From a virus, in IMG/VR virus record IMGVR_UViG_3300023174_008871, positions 1 through 23,753 of that record: a stretch of DNA of 23,753 nt; one strand, written 5' to 3'. The notes below the pieces were generated by a model. That model worked only from the letters and a program-made list of their open reading frames with translations. It had not been told where the DNA came from and made no database searches. The translations under genes and the position numbers were made by a program. Below, one piece after another: positions 1,915 through 23,610 of the stretch (the first letter of the stretch is position 1; each line of letters opens with the position of its first letter).

Positions 1915-2400
1915 TTAGGCAATATATTTGCGAAGATTGTTGTTTCTGTTGGTCCAACCTTTGAGAAATTTCTTTAAACTAGCTTTATTGTAGGCCAAGT
2001 TCTCGTAAAAAGTTTGACGTTGATCAATAACTTTATTAGCCAATTTATATGAATCTGACCTCTGCACAGAAGCCAATGTTTTGGGTCCAATGATGCCATC
2101 TGGCTCTGTGCCTACTGCTCTTTGAAGAAATCTATTAGATTGCTTCTGGCCAGTGTTCACACAACAATCCAAATAAACACAATCTAGGGGCCATATAAAC
2201 TGCTCGCAATTGAATCTAACCCAATACTCAGTGAAGTATATGTCAGTTGCTTCATCAATGGTTAATTCCTTCATGTTAACATCTGGATGGCTTCTTTTGT
2301 CTATGCCATAATTTGTTTCGCCTCCTGGATCATCTGGATCATTGGTATATCCACCTTCTGCATCCAGTACAAACTTTATGGATTTCTGAAAATCGTTCAT
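1915..2400 (-). CDS. Endolysin, GH108-type N-acetylmuramidase with C-terminal peptidoglycan-binding region
   Basis: The 161-aa protein opens with the GH108 signature around residues 13-33: DAEGGYTNDPDDPGGETNYG, in which Glu15 of EGGY is the expected catalytic acid. The family cleaves the beta-1,4 bond between N-acetylmuramic acid and N-acetylglucosamine. Residues ~95-160 (GTEPDGIIGPKTL, then DQRQTFYENLA) match the PG_binding_3 type C-terminal domain usually paired with GH108. There is no signal peptide or SAR segment, so export should depend on a holin, for which 3626-3889 is the candidate. The length is typical of GH108 phage lysins. The start ATG overlaps the stop of the upstream small lipoprotein (ATGA), which fixes the start and implies translational coupling. 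Confidence 0.93.
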   Translation of the reverse strand: MNDFQKSIKFVLDAEGGYTNDPDDPGGETNYGIDKRSHPDVNMKELTIDEATDIYFTEYWVRFNCEQFIWPLDCVYLDCCVNTGQKQSNRFLQRAVGTEPDGIIGPKTLASVQRSDSYKLANKVIDQRQTFYENLAYNKASLKKFLKGWTNRNNNLRKYIA

Positions 2401-2558
2401 CTGTCAAAAGAATGTTCGTTGAATGTTTTGGTGCTAGCATCTTCTGCAGCCTGCATGGTTGGGACATCTGAGTATTTGCTTTTGTGTTGTTCAGATGATG
2501 AAACAGGCGCGCAGCTGACTAGCACTGTACTCATTAGCACTAGGACTATCAATCTCAT
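2397..2558 (-). CDS. Small lipoprotein, 53 aa, coupled to endolysin
   Basis: This short gene runs from ATG 2558 to TGA 2397-2399. It begins with a lipoprotein signal peptide: MRLIVLVLMSTVLVSC, lipobox LVSC with Cys16 as the lipidated residue. The mature part of about 38 residues is hydrophilic (APVSSSEQHKSKYSD and onward) with no other recognisable domain. It begins four bases after the stop of the preceding lipoprotein and its stop overlaps the endolysin ATG (ATGA). Small phage lipoproteins next to endolysins are often outer-membrane spanins (Rz1-like), so this is a candidate o-spanin. The role is inferred from position and lipobox only. Confidence 0.7.
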   Translation of the reverse strand: MRLIVLVLMSTVLVSCAPVSSSEQHKSKYSDVPTMQAAEDASTKTFNEHSFDR

Positions 2559-2562
2559 GCTA

Positions 2563-2982
2563 TTATTTAACTAAATCTTTGGCTTTATCCCAAATGGAAT
2601 CTGGCTCTTTGCCATCTTTGCGCCAACTGTTCAAAATAGCATAATATACCAGATGCTGCTGATCTATGATGTAAAGTTTGTTACCCTTCTTGTCTGTGAA
2701 CTCTTCTATTCCTGAATTGATGTCTAGGTCCACACCTTTAAAGGATTTAAATCTAATTTTGTATGTCTTGATGAGAGTATTGTAGCGCAACAAACCAAAT
2801 GGTGTTATAATACCCCTGCCATCATCAAGAAAGCCGATAAATCCAGAATTCTGTACATCATAACCAGTGGGTGTTGAGGCATCATAGGAGGCAATTTCAT
2901 CCTTAACTTTATCAGGTGTTACTGTAGTGCAGCTACAGAGCAATAAACTACTCAGCGAGAGAATCGCGAATCTTTTTAACAT
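2563..2982 (-). CDS. Lipoprotein, 139 aa, lysis cassette
   Basis: The N-terminus is a clear lipoprotein signal: positively charged MLKR, hydrophobic core FAILSLSSLLL, lipobox LCSC with Cys18. The mature domain (~120 aa) is mixed alpha/beta with no motif I recognise; it includes a Gly/Asp stretch (GFLDDGRGIITPFG) and a charged C-terminus. Its start lies inside the preceding 66-aa gene, giving a 35-nt out-of-frame overlap (2948-2982), an arrangement reminiscent of Rz/Rz1 spanin pairs. It is larger than a typical o-spanin. It may be an outer-membrane lipoprotein acting in envelope disruption or superinfection exclusion; this is inference. Confidence 0.75.
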   Translation of the reverse strand: MLKRFAILSLSSLLLCSCTTVTPDKVKDEIASYDASTPTGYDVQNSGFIGFLDDGRGIITPFGLLRYNTLIKTYKIRFKSFKGVDLDINSGIEEFTDKKGNKLYIIDQQHLVYYAILNSWRKDGKEPDSIWDKAKDLVK

Positions 2983-3148
2983 TTTTCTCCTTTACTGCTT
3001 TTTCAATTTCGTTTTCGTGGTCAGTTTCCTTTTGTTGAAGCTGGCGGTCTTTCATTTCCTTAGTATTCTTTGCACCAAATACATTATTGATAGCACCAAA
3101 TATTCCAGAAATGGCGCCTAATAATGCTTGTAAAATACCGCTTGGCAT
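2948..3148 (-). CDS. Small protein with hydrophobic N-terminus and charged helix; spanin- or antiholin-like candidate
   Basis: The 66-aa product has a hydrophobic, glycine-containing N-terminal stretch (residues 4-26: GILQALLGAISGIFGAINNV and onward) and then an almost entirely charged, helix-forming region (NTKEMKDRQLQQKETDHENE and onward, to residue 66). This one-membrane-segment plus coiled-coil layout resembles inner-membrane spanins (Rz-like), although the first segment is weakly hydrophobic and could be an amphipathic pinholin-type helix. The start overlaps the stop of the upstream lipoprotein (TAATG at 3148), and its 3' end contains the start of the next lipoprotein. I cannot decide between spanin and holin roles from sequence alone. 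Confidence 0.65.
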   Translation of the reverse strand: MPSGILQALLGAISGIFGAINNVFGAKNTKEMKDRQLQQKETDHENEIEKAVKEKNVKKIRDSLAE

Positions 3149-3633
3149 TAGTCTACGTACTCTTCAGTAGCTGTCTTACAGCCTTTAGCAATAGCGTTAA
3201 GTATATCGACTCCGAGCTTTGCATCACCATTGAGCTTAGTAAATTGTGTAGCGTAGATATCTTTAACAATAACTACATACTTAGCCCAGTGTGTCTTATC
3301 TTGAGGGAGATAATCAGTTAAAGCTTTTTGAAGTTGATCAGGTGTTGGTGTGGCGCCTGCTGTTAAACCTTCTACAATTACAGCTACATGATTAATCATC
3401 TTAGCTTTTTCAACTCTATCTTCAGGGTTAAGAGCCTGCTCAAGCACAACTGTACACGCTAGCGTTACAGCTGGCGCAATATAGGGAAGAGCATTTTCTA
3501 CTGCCTCTCTAGATGTAGTACCACCGGTATCCGAGCCTCCGTTGCCACCGTTATTTGTGGCACATGCAGTAAATAAAAGTGAAATAGCGAGAATGGGTAA
3601 AATATTTTTCATACAAATACTTAGCTTAACCAT
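3148..3633 (-). CDS. Lipoprotein, lysis cassette
   Basis: The product carries a lipoprotein signal peptide, MKNILPILAISLLFTAC, if translation starts at the ATG at 3612 (codon 8); the longer form from ATG 3633 adds seven residues (MVKLSIC). The shorter start gives the more canonical signal peptide; the longer one overlaps the holin stop by 8 nt. After the lipidated Cys comes a Gly/Asn/Thr-rich linker (ATNNGGNGGSDTGG) and a mostly helical domain of ~120 residues containing ALNPEDRVEKAKMINHVAVI and Cys residues near both ends. I do not recognise a family. Its place between the holin candidate and the spanin-like gene suggests an envelope role during lysis. Confidence 0.75.
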   Translation of the reverse strand: MVKLSICMKNILPILAISLLFTACATNNGGNGGSDTGGTTSREAVENALPYIAPAVTLACTVVLEQALNPEDRVEKAKMINHVAVIVEGLTAGATPTPDQLQKALTDYLPQDKTHWAKYVVIVKDIYATQFTKLNGDAKLGVDILNAIAKGCKTATEEYVD

Positions 3634-3889
3634 TTATTATTTCTACTTGTTTAGATTCTTTTTCTTGCCGAGTTCGGCTAATAGATTGATCAATAAACGC
3701 TCTTACCGCAATAAATCCTTGTAGAATAAAATTAGAAAACATAATAACAGCAGCTACATTTGATATTTCGCTAAAGTTTTTATATCTACTAATATCTGTA
3801 ATAAAGGCTGGTATCGCTGCTATAAAAAAATACAGCAATGCTCTAAACCAAGCACAATTTCTCATAAAATTATTTATTCGGCCATTCAT
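3626..3889 (-). CDS. Holin candidate, two transmembrane segments
   Basis: The 87-aa product has two predicted membrane segments: residues ~15-36 (FRALLYFFIAAIPAFITDI) and ~43-66 (NVAAVIMFSNFILQGFIAV). A short charged N-terminus and a strongly charged C-terminal tail (ISRTRQEKESKQ) flank them. This fits a class II type phage holin, which forms inner-membrane lesions that release or activate the endolysin. It is the first gene of the minus-strand cassette ending in the GH108 lysin, and it lies 19 nt downstream of a perfect TATAAATA late promoter box. The assignment rests on topology and context, not on a family motif. Confidence 0.75.
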   Translation of the reverse strand: MNGRINNFMRNCAWFRALLYFFIAAIPAFITDISRYKNFSEISNVAAVIMFSNFILQGFIAVRAFIDQSISRTRQEKESKQVEIING

Positions 3890-18551: not shown

Positions 18552-20477
18552 TCAAGGGCCAAAGATTGACTTGAATATATCGTCAAATGTCATCGGAGGG
18601 TTATTAAACTTATCTGGTTTTGTATATTCTGAGGCGCTCATACCTTCTCTTCCAAGCGGATTTTTTTCTGTGGCTCCTTGAGGTATATTCTGCGTTACAA
18701 TTCGTCCCGTCCTAAGACTTTGCTCTTTATCTTTTGCTCCAATTTCTGGTGCACCTTCAAGCTCATTAAATTTAGATTCTTTATCATACGGGACAACTGA
18801 TGTAGCATTTACCTCTTCAGGCGAAGAGCCGTCAGGGTTCATTATTTGCTGACCTGGACGAATTACGTTTTTAATTTCTTCCCATTTTTTGGTTTGACTA
18901 TTATAACGTGCAGGTGTTGCAAAAGAACCTAGTGCTGCAGCCTGTGCCGGTGTTAATACTTTACCACCATATGTGTATACTGTAGGTTCGGGTGCTTGTA
19001 ACGGTACTAAACCAATATCTTTTAATGATTGTTTTGTGGTTTTAATTTTCTTACCATCTGAGGTTGTAAAATCTACAACCTCCTCAGGACTTGCACCCGC
19101 TGTACCTAATGCTGTGGAGCCGCCTGCTTCCGGTTTAAAAAGTTGATCCGCTTTTTGTTTTAACGGGTTCAAAATATTGGCAGCTAACCTTGCTGCAGCT
19201 TGCTTATACATCCATGCTTTTGCTGCAGCCCCTGTCGCTAAACGAGCAGCAACCTTAGTACCAGTACTAAATTTTTTCCCTGCATCCGCTACATCTCCTG
19301 CGGCCTCAGCACCTTTTTCTGCTGTTTTTGTAGCCACAGCCGCTTCCTTTTCAGCCGTTTTTGCAATTGTGGTTACCTCTTTTTCCCCAGTTTTGGCGCC
19401 TATTTCACCTAAATCTTCTAACCCCTTAAGCGCTTTTGTTGCTGTAGTTGGTGTAGGTGCTTCTGGAAACTTAATACTAGGGTGAGCCGCCTTAATTGCG
19501 TCAATAACTTTTTCTTTAGTAGTTCCATTTTTTATTGCTATAGAATCTAATGACTGACCAATTAATTTATCATCAGATTTTGCAACTATATATTTTAAGG
19601 TATTTTCAATACCATAATCAGCGTTTCCCTCTTGACTTCTATAGAGCTTTTGATCATCAACTAATTTTTTAAATATAGGGTCGTTATCTATTTCTTTAGC
19701 AAGCTTTGTTGTTTCATCAGCAGCTTTTTTTGCAAACCCTCCATCTATTTTTGCTTTATCCTCAGCCGATAATGCTTTATAGTCCTTATAGTCCATACCT
19801 TTAGGGCTAGGTGTACCGGCTTTTAACTCTACACCTGTACTTTTACCGATTGACTTCTCTAATGCAGCTAATTCATCTGATGTTGCTCCTAGTTCTTTTG
19901 TTACTTTTGTCGCGGCTTCTACTGCAGCAGGTGATCTAGAGACCAACTTACTAATCTCTTCAGCAGCTTTAATAACTTTATCGGGATGTTTTTCTGCGCT
20001 TTTTATCAAAAATTTTATACCACCCCTTGCTGCAGCAACACCGACTTCGGAACCAGCACTAGCTACAGCGCCTGGAATAGCACCTATACCAGCACCACCA
20101 ACAGCGCCTGCAGCTGTTGCACCGACTGATACAAACAACGGTATGTTAGGTATACAATTAACGAGGTTTAACAAATATAACGCAAAATTTAATGTAGAGG
20201 GGTTGCTTCGATAATGTAATAATGCTTCTGCAGTATCATCCCACGAAGATATCCCTGTAGGGTCAAGCAATTCCCATGCTGTAGCCGCAACCTTACCCGG
20301 GATAGATTCAGCATCACCCATAACACCCTTGACAAAAGAACCAGCATTTTTTTTAAACTCAACAGTTTTTTTGGCCCCGGTCTCCAACGCATTACCAACA
20401 GCATGCTTTAAATCATCGTACATACCTTCAGCGACTAGAGCATCGGTAAGTTGAATAAATTGTTTAAAAGTTTTCAT
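18552..20477 (-). CDS. Large putative head-internal/ejected protein with membrane segments
   Basis: The 641-aa protein starts MKTFKQFIQLTDALVAEG, resembling the T4 capsid-targeting peptide (MKTYQEFIAE) that sends internal proteins into the prohead and is removed by the gp21-type protease; here a cut after Glu17 (VAE/G) is plausible. A hydrophobic, Ala/Gly-rich stretch at ~97-150 (LYLLNLVNCIPNIPLFVS, then AGAVGGAGIGAIPGAVA) could insert into membranes. The middle is helical and Lys/Ala-rich with tandem 'KTAEKE/KTAEKG' repeats (~375-390). A possible LysM-like segment (SLDSIAIKNGTTKEKV) lies at ~305-320, and the C-terminus is Pro-rich. The stop of the M15 gene abuts its ATG, so the two are coupled. 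The ejection role is inference. Confidence 0.7.
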   Translation of the reverse strand: MKTFKQFIQLTDALVAEGMYDDLKHAVGNALETGAKKTVEFKKNAGSFVKGVMGDAESIPGKVAATAWELLDPTGISSWDDTAEALLHYRSNPSTLNFALYLLNLVNCIPNIPLFVSVGATAAGAVGGAGIGAIPGAVASAGSEVGVAAARGGIKFLIKSAEKHPDKVIKAAEEISKLVSRSPAAVEAATKVTKELGATSDELAALEKSIGKSTGVELKAGTPSPKGMDYKDYKALSAEDKAKIDGGFAKKAADETTKLAKEIDNDPIFKKLVDDQKLYRSQEGNADYGIENTLKYIVAKSDDKLIGQSLDSIAIKNGTTKEKVIDAIKAAHPSIKFPEAPTPTTATKALKGLEDLGEIGAKTGEKEVTTIAKTAEKEAAVATKTAEKGAEAAGDVADAGKKFSTGTKVAARLATGAAAKAWMYKQAAARLAANILNPLKQKADQLFKPEAGGSTALGTAGASPEEVVDFTTSDGKKIKTTKQSLKDIGLVPLQAPEPTVYTYGGKVLTPAQAAALGSFATPARYNSQTKKWEEIKNVIRPGQQIMNPDGSSPEEVNATSVVPYDKESKFNELEGAPEIGAKDKEQSLRTGRIVTQNIPQGATEKNPLGREGMSASEYTKPDKFNNPPMTFDDIFKSIFGP

Positions 20478-21119
20478 TTAACCTCTATATTCAAAATGAT
20501 ATGGATCACCAGCTATAGCAGCAAAGTGCCAGCCAAATTTTGGTCCATTCTTTTGAAACCAATTATATGCAGCTGTTCCCGGTTGTATATCTACAGCATT
20601 TCCAAGGCCGTGTTTTGATTTTCCTGATTTACCAACTACTTTATGCCCCTCACGTGAAAGCCCGCCTTGGTGCTCTAAATTTCTATAAGCACTGTTTATT
20701 GGTATTTGCTCACCAAACGTTCTTTGGGCCATTAAAAATGCATCCGCGGCTTTCGGGCTTAAATAAGCGGTATTACCATACCATTGTCTAGCCCCTGAAG
20801 GACCTGCATCGTACTTACCGACAGGCTTTAATTCCTGTTGTGTTAATTGCCCGTTTTTATTTGCAGCTGCAGTTTGCTGCGGTTGGGTTGGTGCAGTTAT
20901 TTGTGTTGGCACACTTGTTGTTGCAACGTTTTGCTGTGTTACAGCGGGAGCAACCCGTTGTGGTGCAGCTTGCTGTGTTGGTACAGCGCGCATCGGAGCA
21001 TTGGTTTGCAAAGGATATGTTTGTTGTTGTGTAGCTTGTTTTTGAGGCAATCTAGGTTGTCTTGCAGTTGCACCAGAAACATCAAACCGCGCCTCAGCTA
21101 TAAACTCCTTAAAAGTCAT
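20478..21119 (-). CDS. Capsid-targeted M15-type (VanY-like) peptidase
   Basis: The start is ATG 21119, giving MTFKEFIAEARFD; the longer form from TTG 21125 is unlikely. This N-terminus closely matches the T4 internal-protein targeting peptide, with a consensus prohead-protease site (I-A-E/A). A Gln/Ala/Pro-rich linker (~20-90) follows. The C-terminal half is an M15 peptidase: INSAYRNLEHQGG, SKHGLGNAVDI (zinc ligands His170 and Asp177) and DPYHFEY (third ligand His208). M15 enzymes cut peptide bonds in peptidoglycan stem peptides. Together these suggest a virion-packaged peptidase ejected to open the wall during entry. It heads a two-gene unit with the 641-aa protein. Confidence 0.85.
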   Translation of the reverse strand: MTFKEFIAEARFDVSGATARQPRLPQKQATQQQTYPLQTNAPMRAVPTQQAAPQRVAPAVTQQNVATTSVPTQITAPTQPQQTAAANKNGQLTQQELKPVGKYDAGPSGARQWYGNTAYLSPKAADAFLMAQRTFGEQIPINSAYRNLEHQGGLSREGHKVVGKSGKSKHGLGNAVDIQPGTAAYNWFQKNGPKFGWHFAAIAGDPYHFEYRG

Positions 21120-21126
21120 TATCAAT

Positions 21127-21134
21127 TATTTATA
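21127..21134 (-). promoter_or_regulatory. T4-type late promoter box before the M15 peptidase gene
   Basis: The minus strand reads TATAAATA, ending 7 nt before the ATG at 21119. A start about 6 nt after the box (near 21121) would leave a two-base leader, and no Shine-Dalgarno is present. A structural, head-associated gene would be expected to be late, in agreement with this box. Confidence 0.55.
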
Positions 21135-23415: not shown

Positions 23416-23610
23416 TTATTTCTTTTGATTTGCTTTGCAGTCTGCACAGCCATCGCAGTCGCAACCCTCTGTAGCATACTTACATTTATTCTCCTCTGTA
23501 ACAACATTAAACGTATAATATTTACTAAGAAAATTAGCTACAGCGCTATCGAAGCTTTCGTTCATTTTTTTACCAATTGTCTTTTTTGATGATCCGGATT
23601 TTAATGGCAT
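23416..23610 (-). CDS. Small phage protein with Cys-rich tail, 64 aa
   Basis: The N-terminus MPLKSGSSKKTIGKKM is the start of a widespread family of small phage proteins ('MPLK-G-SKKTI'), usually ending in an Ala-rich helix. Here the second half differs: it holds Cys43, 50, 52, 55 and 58 (spacing CX6CXCX2CX2C) with several Asp residues, which could bind a metal such as zinc or an iron-sulfur cluster. It begins 6 nt after a TATAAATA box that overlaps the upstream gene's stop, so it is probably transcribed from its own late start. Function unknown. Confidence 0.75.
   Translation of the reverse strand: MPLKSGSSKKTIGKKMNESFDSAVANFLSKYYTFNVVTEENKCKYATEGCDCDGCADCKANQKK

Follow-up and report, generated by a model that had tools for sequence, protein, structure and literature searches.

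An uncultured T4-type phage probably delivers a cell-wall peptidase together with its DNA, and perhaps a partner that inserts into the membrane

Results

Two tagged genes in a phage fragment

The phage analyzed here probably ships a cell-wall peptidase into the bacterium together with its DNA, since two of its genes (ORFs A and B) both carry a T4-type head-loading tag. The ORF B product, a putative membrane-inserting partner of the ORF A peptidase, is perhaps shipped too. The window, the whole stretch of DNA that was analyzed, is a 23.7-kb fragment (23,753 nucleotides) of an uncultured T4-type phage (an IMG/VR virus record). Packaging in the head is predicted by comparison and is well supported by the tag in orthologues and in stand-alone M15 proteins, by the separate lysis cassettes, and by the presence of gp21 and gp23 in relatives.

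Both genes lie on the minus strand at the coordinates given in the initial annotation (Table 1). The stop codon TAA of ORF A directly abuts the ATG of ORF B at 20477, forming a TAAATG junction. The pair is flanked by queE, phoH, and queD on one side and by a thymidylate-kinase-like P-loop protein on the other. Elsewhere in the window (23416-23610), a small Lys-rich protein lacks 42 aa, deleted in frame, when compared with the near-identical contig L002 (1443-1763).

Table 1. Positions of the features of ORFs A and B in the window
Feature	Position	Strand	Basis or remark
T4-type late-promoter-like element, TATAAATA	21127..21134	-	7 nt before the ORF A ATG
ORF A, tagged M15 (VanY-like) zinc peptidase, 213 aa	20478..21119	-	ATG at 21119; starts MTFKEFIAEARFDV
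Capsid-targeting-like propeptide MTFKEFIAE, predicted gp21-type cut after Glu9 (IAE↓A)	21093..21119	-	IPII/IPIII pattern; relatives
Gln/Pro/Thr-rich low-confidence linker, residues 10-84	20868..21092	-	sequence; pLDDT <50 at 16-84
M15B peptidase domain, residues 85-213, motifs SKHGLGNAVD and DPYH	20481..20867	-	motif and fold search
AGAGG, Shine-Dalgarno-like, for ORF B	20482..20486	-	sequence
ORF B, tagged 641-aa helical protein, family of the window's phage group	18552..20477	-	starts MKTFKQFIQLTDALVAEGMYDD
Capsid-targeting-like propeptide of ORF B, MKTFKQFIQLTDALVAE, predicted cut LVAE17↓G	20427..20477	-	L127 alignment; IPI precedent
Conserved DPTG module, hydrophobic segment (98-116) and Gly/Ala run, about residues 62-150	20028..20292	-	alignment
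C-terminal motif of ORF B, VYTYGGKVLTPAQAAALGSFATP, common to other cassette proteins	18912..18980	-	comparison

TAAATAA-type elements like that before ORF A precede almost every orthologous or equivalent gene in relatives, and resemble the late promoter of T4 and of T4-like cyanophages (NATAAATA in the latter; PMC2984593). G006, a relative of 229.7 kb, has the element just upstream of genes that include those for the portal, gp21 protease, tail tube, baseplate, and tail fibre, while those for RNR, polymerase, and helicases lack it. The exceptions are PhoH and a clamp loader in one direction and MCP and the sheath in the other. The distance from the box to the start codon is short, about 2-15 nt (21120-21134 in the window; equivalents in L127, L130, and L139), which would imply nearly leaderless late mRNAs.

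M15 peptidase domain of ORF A

Pfam gives a weak VanY match to ORF A (E = 1.3e-3), and phmmer finds no match to it in PDB. In contrast, the fold search with the model of residues 85-213 retrieves VanXY, VanY, and LdcB with Z scores of up to 12.3. The M15 zinc site (H, D, and H ligands and the catalytic acid) is complete, and the pattern SxHGxGxxxD...[DE]xxH is invariant in relatives. The complete M15 zinc peptidase proposed initially is therefore clear from the model, the fold search, and the invariant active site. ORF A shares the fold and the zinc site with VanXY, VanY, and LdcB but is 22-28% identical to them over the domain, and they are chromosomal or resistance enzymes. These nearest folds belong to carboxypeptidases that trim stem peptides, so that the term wall-cutting goes beyond the evidence.

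The tag and the [ILV]xE site are kept in ORF A orthologues with 47-62% identity. The orthologue in G006 (62%) begins with MVSYRQFIKE↓A and that in L126/L127 (47%) with MISFKKFVKE↓A, where the arrow marks the predicted cut. A profile scan yielded 55 M15 loci of two kinds. The first comprises large tail- or tape-measure-type proteins without the tag. In the second, M15 is stand-alone or N-terminal, and [ILV]xE↓A closes a short N-terminal stretch immediately ahead of the domain, as in L130, L277, L278/L279, L292, L268, L302, L283, and L300, all from uncultured phages; the L179 protein has FLNE↓V at the same kind of site. The Glu residue is invariant in the M15 relatives, some of which (second kind) are fused to peptidoglycan (PG)-binding and GH19 domains. 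In this M15 set, gp21 is present in the L279, L298, and L300 records and was not found in seven others, which are mostly short. No tagged M15 protein was found among the cultured phage records in the collection.

Comparison with T4 internal proteins

In the T4 record, the N-termini of IPII and IPIII read MKTYQEFIAE↓A. IPI starts with MKTFKEF and reads MKTFKEFTSTTTPVSTITE↓A without Glu10. The IPI precursor has 95 aa and its mature form 76 residues (PMC3012670), indicating a cut after Glu19. In the T4 capsid-targeting sequence (CTS), the aromatic residues at positions 4 and 7 are needed for targeting and residues 8 and 10 for processing, and the propeptides are 10-19 residues long (PMC9026906). 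The corresponding residues are F4, F7, and I8 in ORF B and are shifted by one in ORF A (F3, F6, and I7). ORF A, one residue shorter, keeps both the targeting and the processing residues, whereas ORF B keeps the targeting half. Both have a Glu-ending prohead-protease pattern, IAE9↓A in ORF A and VAE17↓G in ORF B, the latter like IPI rather than IPII and IPIII.

The lack of the canonical Glu10 leaves LVAE17↓G as the sole plausible protease site in ORF B. The propeptide aligns without gaps with MKTFKQYVANEYKPLNE17↓G of L127, and IPI provides the precedent for a tag without Glu10. The tag and plausible cleavage site ascribed to both genes from the outset are thus found in ORF A, while ORF B has the tag and a site only at this later position.

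Relatives were fetched through queE (80 records, 59-99% identity). Among 20 large records, namely relatives and four tag-bearing contigs, the gp21 protease (PF03420) is found in 13, and gp23 (PF07068) in the same 13, including G002, G003, and G006. We infer gp21 and gp23 of the window's phage from these relatives, the fragment being too short to reach the genes. Furthermore, among 17 other contigs with the tag (30-78 kb), at least 6 have gp23, a floor because the contigs are fragments. Head targeting, as claimed in the initial annotation, is supported well for ORF A (CTS residues, orthologues, gp21/gp23 in relatives, the late-promoter-like element, and an endolysin encoded elsewhere) and fairly well for ORF B. 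The two proteins share with IPI, IPII, and IPIII the N-terminal tag, its aromatic residues 4 and 7, and the [ILV]xE↓A/G site. However, the known T4 cargo consists of small basic proteins and the Alt ADP-ribosyltransferase, whereas in the window the tag heads a peptidoglycan peptidase and a helical protein of 641 aa.

N-terminal tag across viral contigs

Viral contigs were searched for DNA encoding MKTFK[EQ]FI, a pattern that leaves residues 10 and 11 free. Matches occur in at least 119 contigs, some with two to four tagged genes, and the 8-residue tag heads at least 86 non-redundant proteins that are mutually unrelated beyond residue 11. Among the matches listed, residue 10 is Glu in 71 of the 86 proteins and residue 11 is Ala (27) or Ser (11) in 38. 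The per-ORF chance of the exact 8-mers is approximately 5e-9 from composition. Judged from these sequences, the tag is not a product of chance, and Glu10 followed by Ala or Ser is a site of the T4 prohead-protease kind.

Pfam matches among the tagged proteins include two ADP-ribosyltransferase exoenzymes, one ART-PolyVal, and two SAM lyases, along with single matches to a zeta toxin, a glucosaminidase, and a lytic-transglycosylase-type DPBB. T4 Alt is itself an ADP-ribosyltransferase packaged in the head. This domain set fits putative ejected effectors. A loose regular expression for the tag over whole genomes gave few matches, about twice the reversed-motif control. The tag counts in G002, G003, and G006 are therefore not claimed to be significant, and the case for the tag is built on the collection-wide scan and the orthologues.

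ORF B and its locus

Searches with ORF B alone against phage genomes, viral contigs, Pfam, PHROGs, and NCBIfam gave nothing above chance, and its relatives were reached only through the queE neighbourhood. The orthologue in L127 is 33% identical and keeps the tag and the site. The family occupies the same locus in L126-L130, L139-L141, L179, and L243. Its members have a conserved module, [DE]P[TS]G[VIL]xS, together with a single hydrophobic segment and a run of Gly/Ala. Several members have only loose tags, for example MVTYKQYDVVVGEG in L140. DUF6861 and SseC match an ORF B orthologue only below the cut-off, and distant DPTG matches in giant proteins of L246 and L248 likely reflect module sharing instead of orthology.

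The initial description of long Ala/Gly hydrophobic segments holds for one segment (KD 1.65), the single one over the threshold, and the Gly/Ala run that follows, but not for several long segments. The AlphaFold model is poor (mean pLDDT 46.5). The protein is helical as first described, while the membrane or channel role assigned to it is suggested by composition and weak profile matches.

The gene upstream of the B-family member should be noted. It encodes an M15 protein in the window, L126/L127, and L129/L130, where the two genes are adjacent and coupled as initially described. In L179, a tagged M15 protein, a tagged glucosaminidase, and a B-like protein stand in a row. In contrast, L128, L139, and L243 have a different, unnamed protein upstream, L140/L141 have no enzyme beside the B-family member, and in G006 the tagged M15 gene stands alone, far from queE and without ORF B. 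Pairing of A and B is thus frequent but not obligatory. An L,D-transpeptidase assignment of the L128 upstream gene, made by eye (HPDG...GCIGI), found no support in Pfam, PHROGs, NCBIfam, or PDB.

The 184-aa product of a third L127 gene (13366-13920; MKPFNKFFLREG...) bears the C-terminal 52 residues that end ORF B in the window; a putative fusion or fission of cassette proteins is behind this arrangement.

Discussion

In a T4-type myophage, ORFs A and B would be expressed late and become internal proteins of the head. The tag at each N-terminus would bind the prohead core, and a gp21-type protease would remove it after Glu9 in ORF A and Glu17 in ORF B. By analogy with T4, the mature proteins would lie among the packaged DNA and be ejected with it. 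The VanY/VanXY-fold peptidase would then act on peptidoglycan stem peptides, most likely loosening the murein where the DNA passes, and the hydrophobic, Gly/Ala-rich module of ORF B would most likely enter the inner membrane for passage or anchoring, which is the weakest step.

We regard late internal head proteins that are cleaved and ejected with DNA as the best explanation as a whole, with moderate confidence. The site of action of ORF A is the least certain point of the mechanism, and a murein hydrolase would be without murein in the cytoplasm, where T4 internal proteins end up (PMC9026906), unless it works during its passage. In fold, ORF A is closest to carboxypeptidases, the nearest cultured relatives of its M15 domain are baseplate-hub proteins, ORFs A and B are not always together, and ORF B has a poor model and no family match. 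The entry machine envisaged initially is less well supported than head packaging, as the membrane role of ORF B comes from composition and the pair is not obligatory.

Both proteins may instead be packaged and ejected while ORF A cleaves cytoplasmic wall precursors (UDP-MurNAc-pentapeptide or D-Ala-D-Ala) and stops wall synthesis. Known targets of zeta toxins are wall-sugar precursors, and a zeta-toxin domain also lies behind the tag. VanXY and VanY are the closest folds, enzymes of the VanXY kind being able to cleave cytoplasmic precursors, and T4 internal proteins do reach the cytoplasm (PMC9026906). However, related proteins with the tag have glucosaminidase, GH19, and PG-binding domains, which need polymeric murein, and we consider precursor cleavage unlikely.

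Still more doubtful is the reading in which ORF A, like the M15 proteins of cyanophages, is a peptidoglycan hydrolase of the tail or baseplate hub and ORF B is a tail protein. The best cultured relatives of the M15 domain, from the Kyanoviridae phages DSL-LC03 (49% identity, WJZ47892) and S-SCSM1 (43%, PQC12_gp158), are encoded in a baseplate-hub operon, the S-SCSM1 one being noted as a virion protein, and the top profile is a tape measure (PHROG 16823). These homologous domains, however, are in tail position, and the tail-type proteins lack the head tag and have other N-termini. Their size also exceeds that of ORF A, at 320 aa in DSL-LC03 and 560-1100 aa among the IMG/VR proteins. ORF A encodes a 213-aa stand-alone protein with a head-protease-type propeptide and lies among queE, phoH, and the P-loop kinase, away from tail operons, as do its tagged orthologues.

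We give very little credence to ORF A as an endolysin acting at the end of infection with ORF B as a holin-like helper. M15 endolysins are common in phages, PHROG endolysin profiles match, and a late-promoter-like element precedes ORF A. However, the window has a separate lysis cassette (1915-3889, minus strand) with a GH108 endolysin (PF05838, 3.6e-22), two lipoproteins, and a holin-like protein, and ORF A is outside it. ORF A would thus not be the endolysin, and it is not placed like a tail enzyme. The cassette is syntenic with G006 198787-200869 and G003 113118-115056, which contain an untagged M15 protein, and G006 has its tagged M15 separately. GH108 in the window against untagged M15 in G006 and G003 is a putative non-homologous endolysin swap. 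Similarly, tags that serve only as scaffold-binding elements, with ORFs A and B as non-ejected core or packaging aids, are highly improbable, as the M15 active site is intact and conserved and effector-like enzyme classes lie behind the tag, although T4 IPIII affects head assembly (PMC9026906).

Returning to head packaging with ejection, uncultured T4-type phages could, tentatively, use a single short, cleavable tag as a modular code to ship many enzymes in a varying set that includes a standing entry kit, a T7-like ejection machine. The kit would consist of a murein peptidase or glucosaminidase and a DPTG-module membrane protein, in a contractile-tailed phage. In T7 (gp14-15-16) and P22 (gp7-16-20), a murein-cutting enzyme and envelope-spanning proteins leave the virion with the DNA, and the same logic is proposed for ORFs A and B. 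However, no homology was found, profile searches with ORF B giving no match, and the window's phage is of the T4 type, with a contractile tail and a tail tube of its own. Polyvalent proteins, proposed as capsid-packaged effectors with DD-peptidase and lysozyme domains breaching murein (Iyer et al. 2017, PMC5512222), resemble the proposed ORF A in being packaged murein enzymes but are multidomain, whereas the window has single enzymes behind a cleavable T4-type tag.

The capsid-targeting system and the proposal of DD-peptidase domains on packaged polyvalent proteins (PMC5512222) are thus already known, and a review suggests that T4-like phages load various proteins via the CTS (PMC9026906). Within the literature searched, single peptidoglycan enzymes that bear a cleavable tag of the T4 type appear to be new; no survey of CTS-tagged cargo was apparent in the titles and abstracts of papers using the CTS phrase. 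If our reading is correct, peptidoglycan enzymes join the T4 capsid-targeting cargo as a new class for a known tag. The rule M-x(1-3)-F-x-x-F-[IVL]-x-E↓A/S would then predict proteins delivered by uncultured T4-type phages, including ADP-ribosyltransferases, SAM lyases, and NAD-type nucleotidyltransferases.

Several other N-termini should be noted. A tagged NMN/nicotinate adenylyltransferase-like protein (MKTFRQFLIES...GVFPGAFKPPHKGH; identity by motif only) recurs in L126 (2178), L127 (3032), L131 (2878), L149 (3201), and G006 (170652); if packaged, it might act as an early NAD-restoring counter-defence. A tagged protein in G006 (173248), G002 (14395), and G003 (81069) has a VDTGNSxxNVLHA motif, like a tagged Zn_protease match (PF05618), and is a candidate head-packaged protease. 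In L249 (1256-5645), at least three tandem genes start with M(KM)KLL(F/L)ENWRK(F/Y), a second tag-like N-terminus on unrelated proteins. Several cassette proteins (L128 13124, L140 3312, L179 13404, L243 4881, and L277 3872) share an N-terminus of approximately RDxxLIxxxYxxI...E, which may be an alternative address tag.
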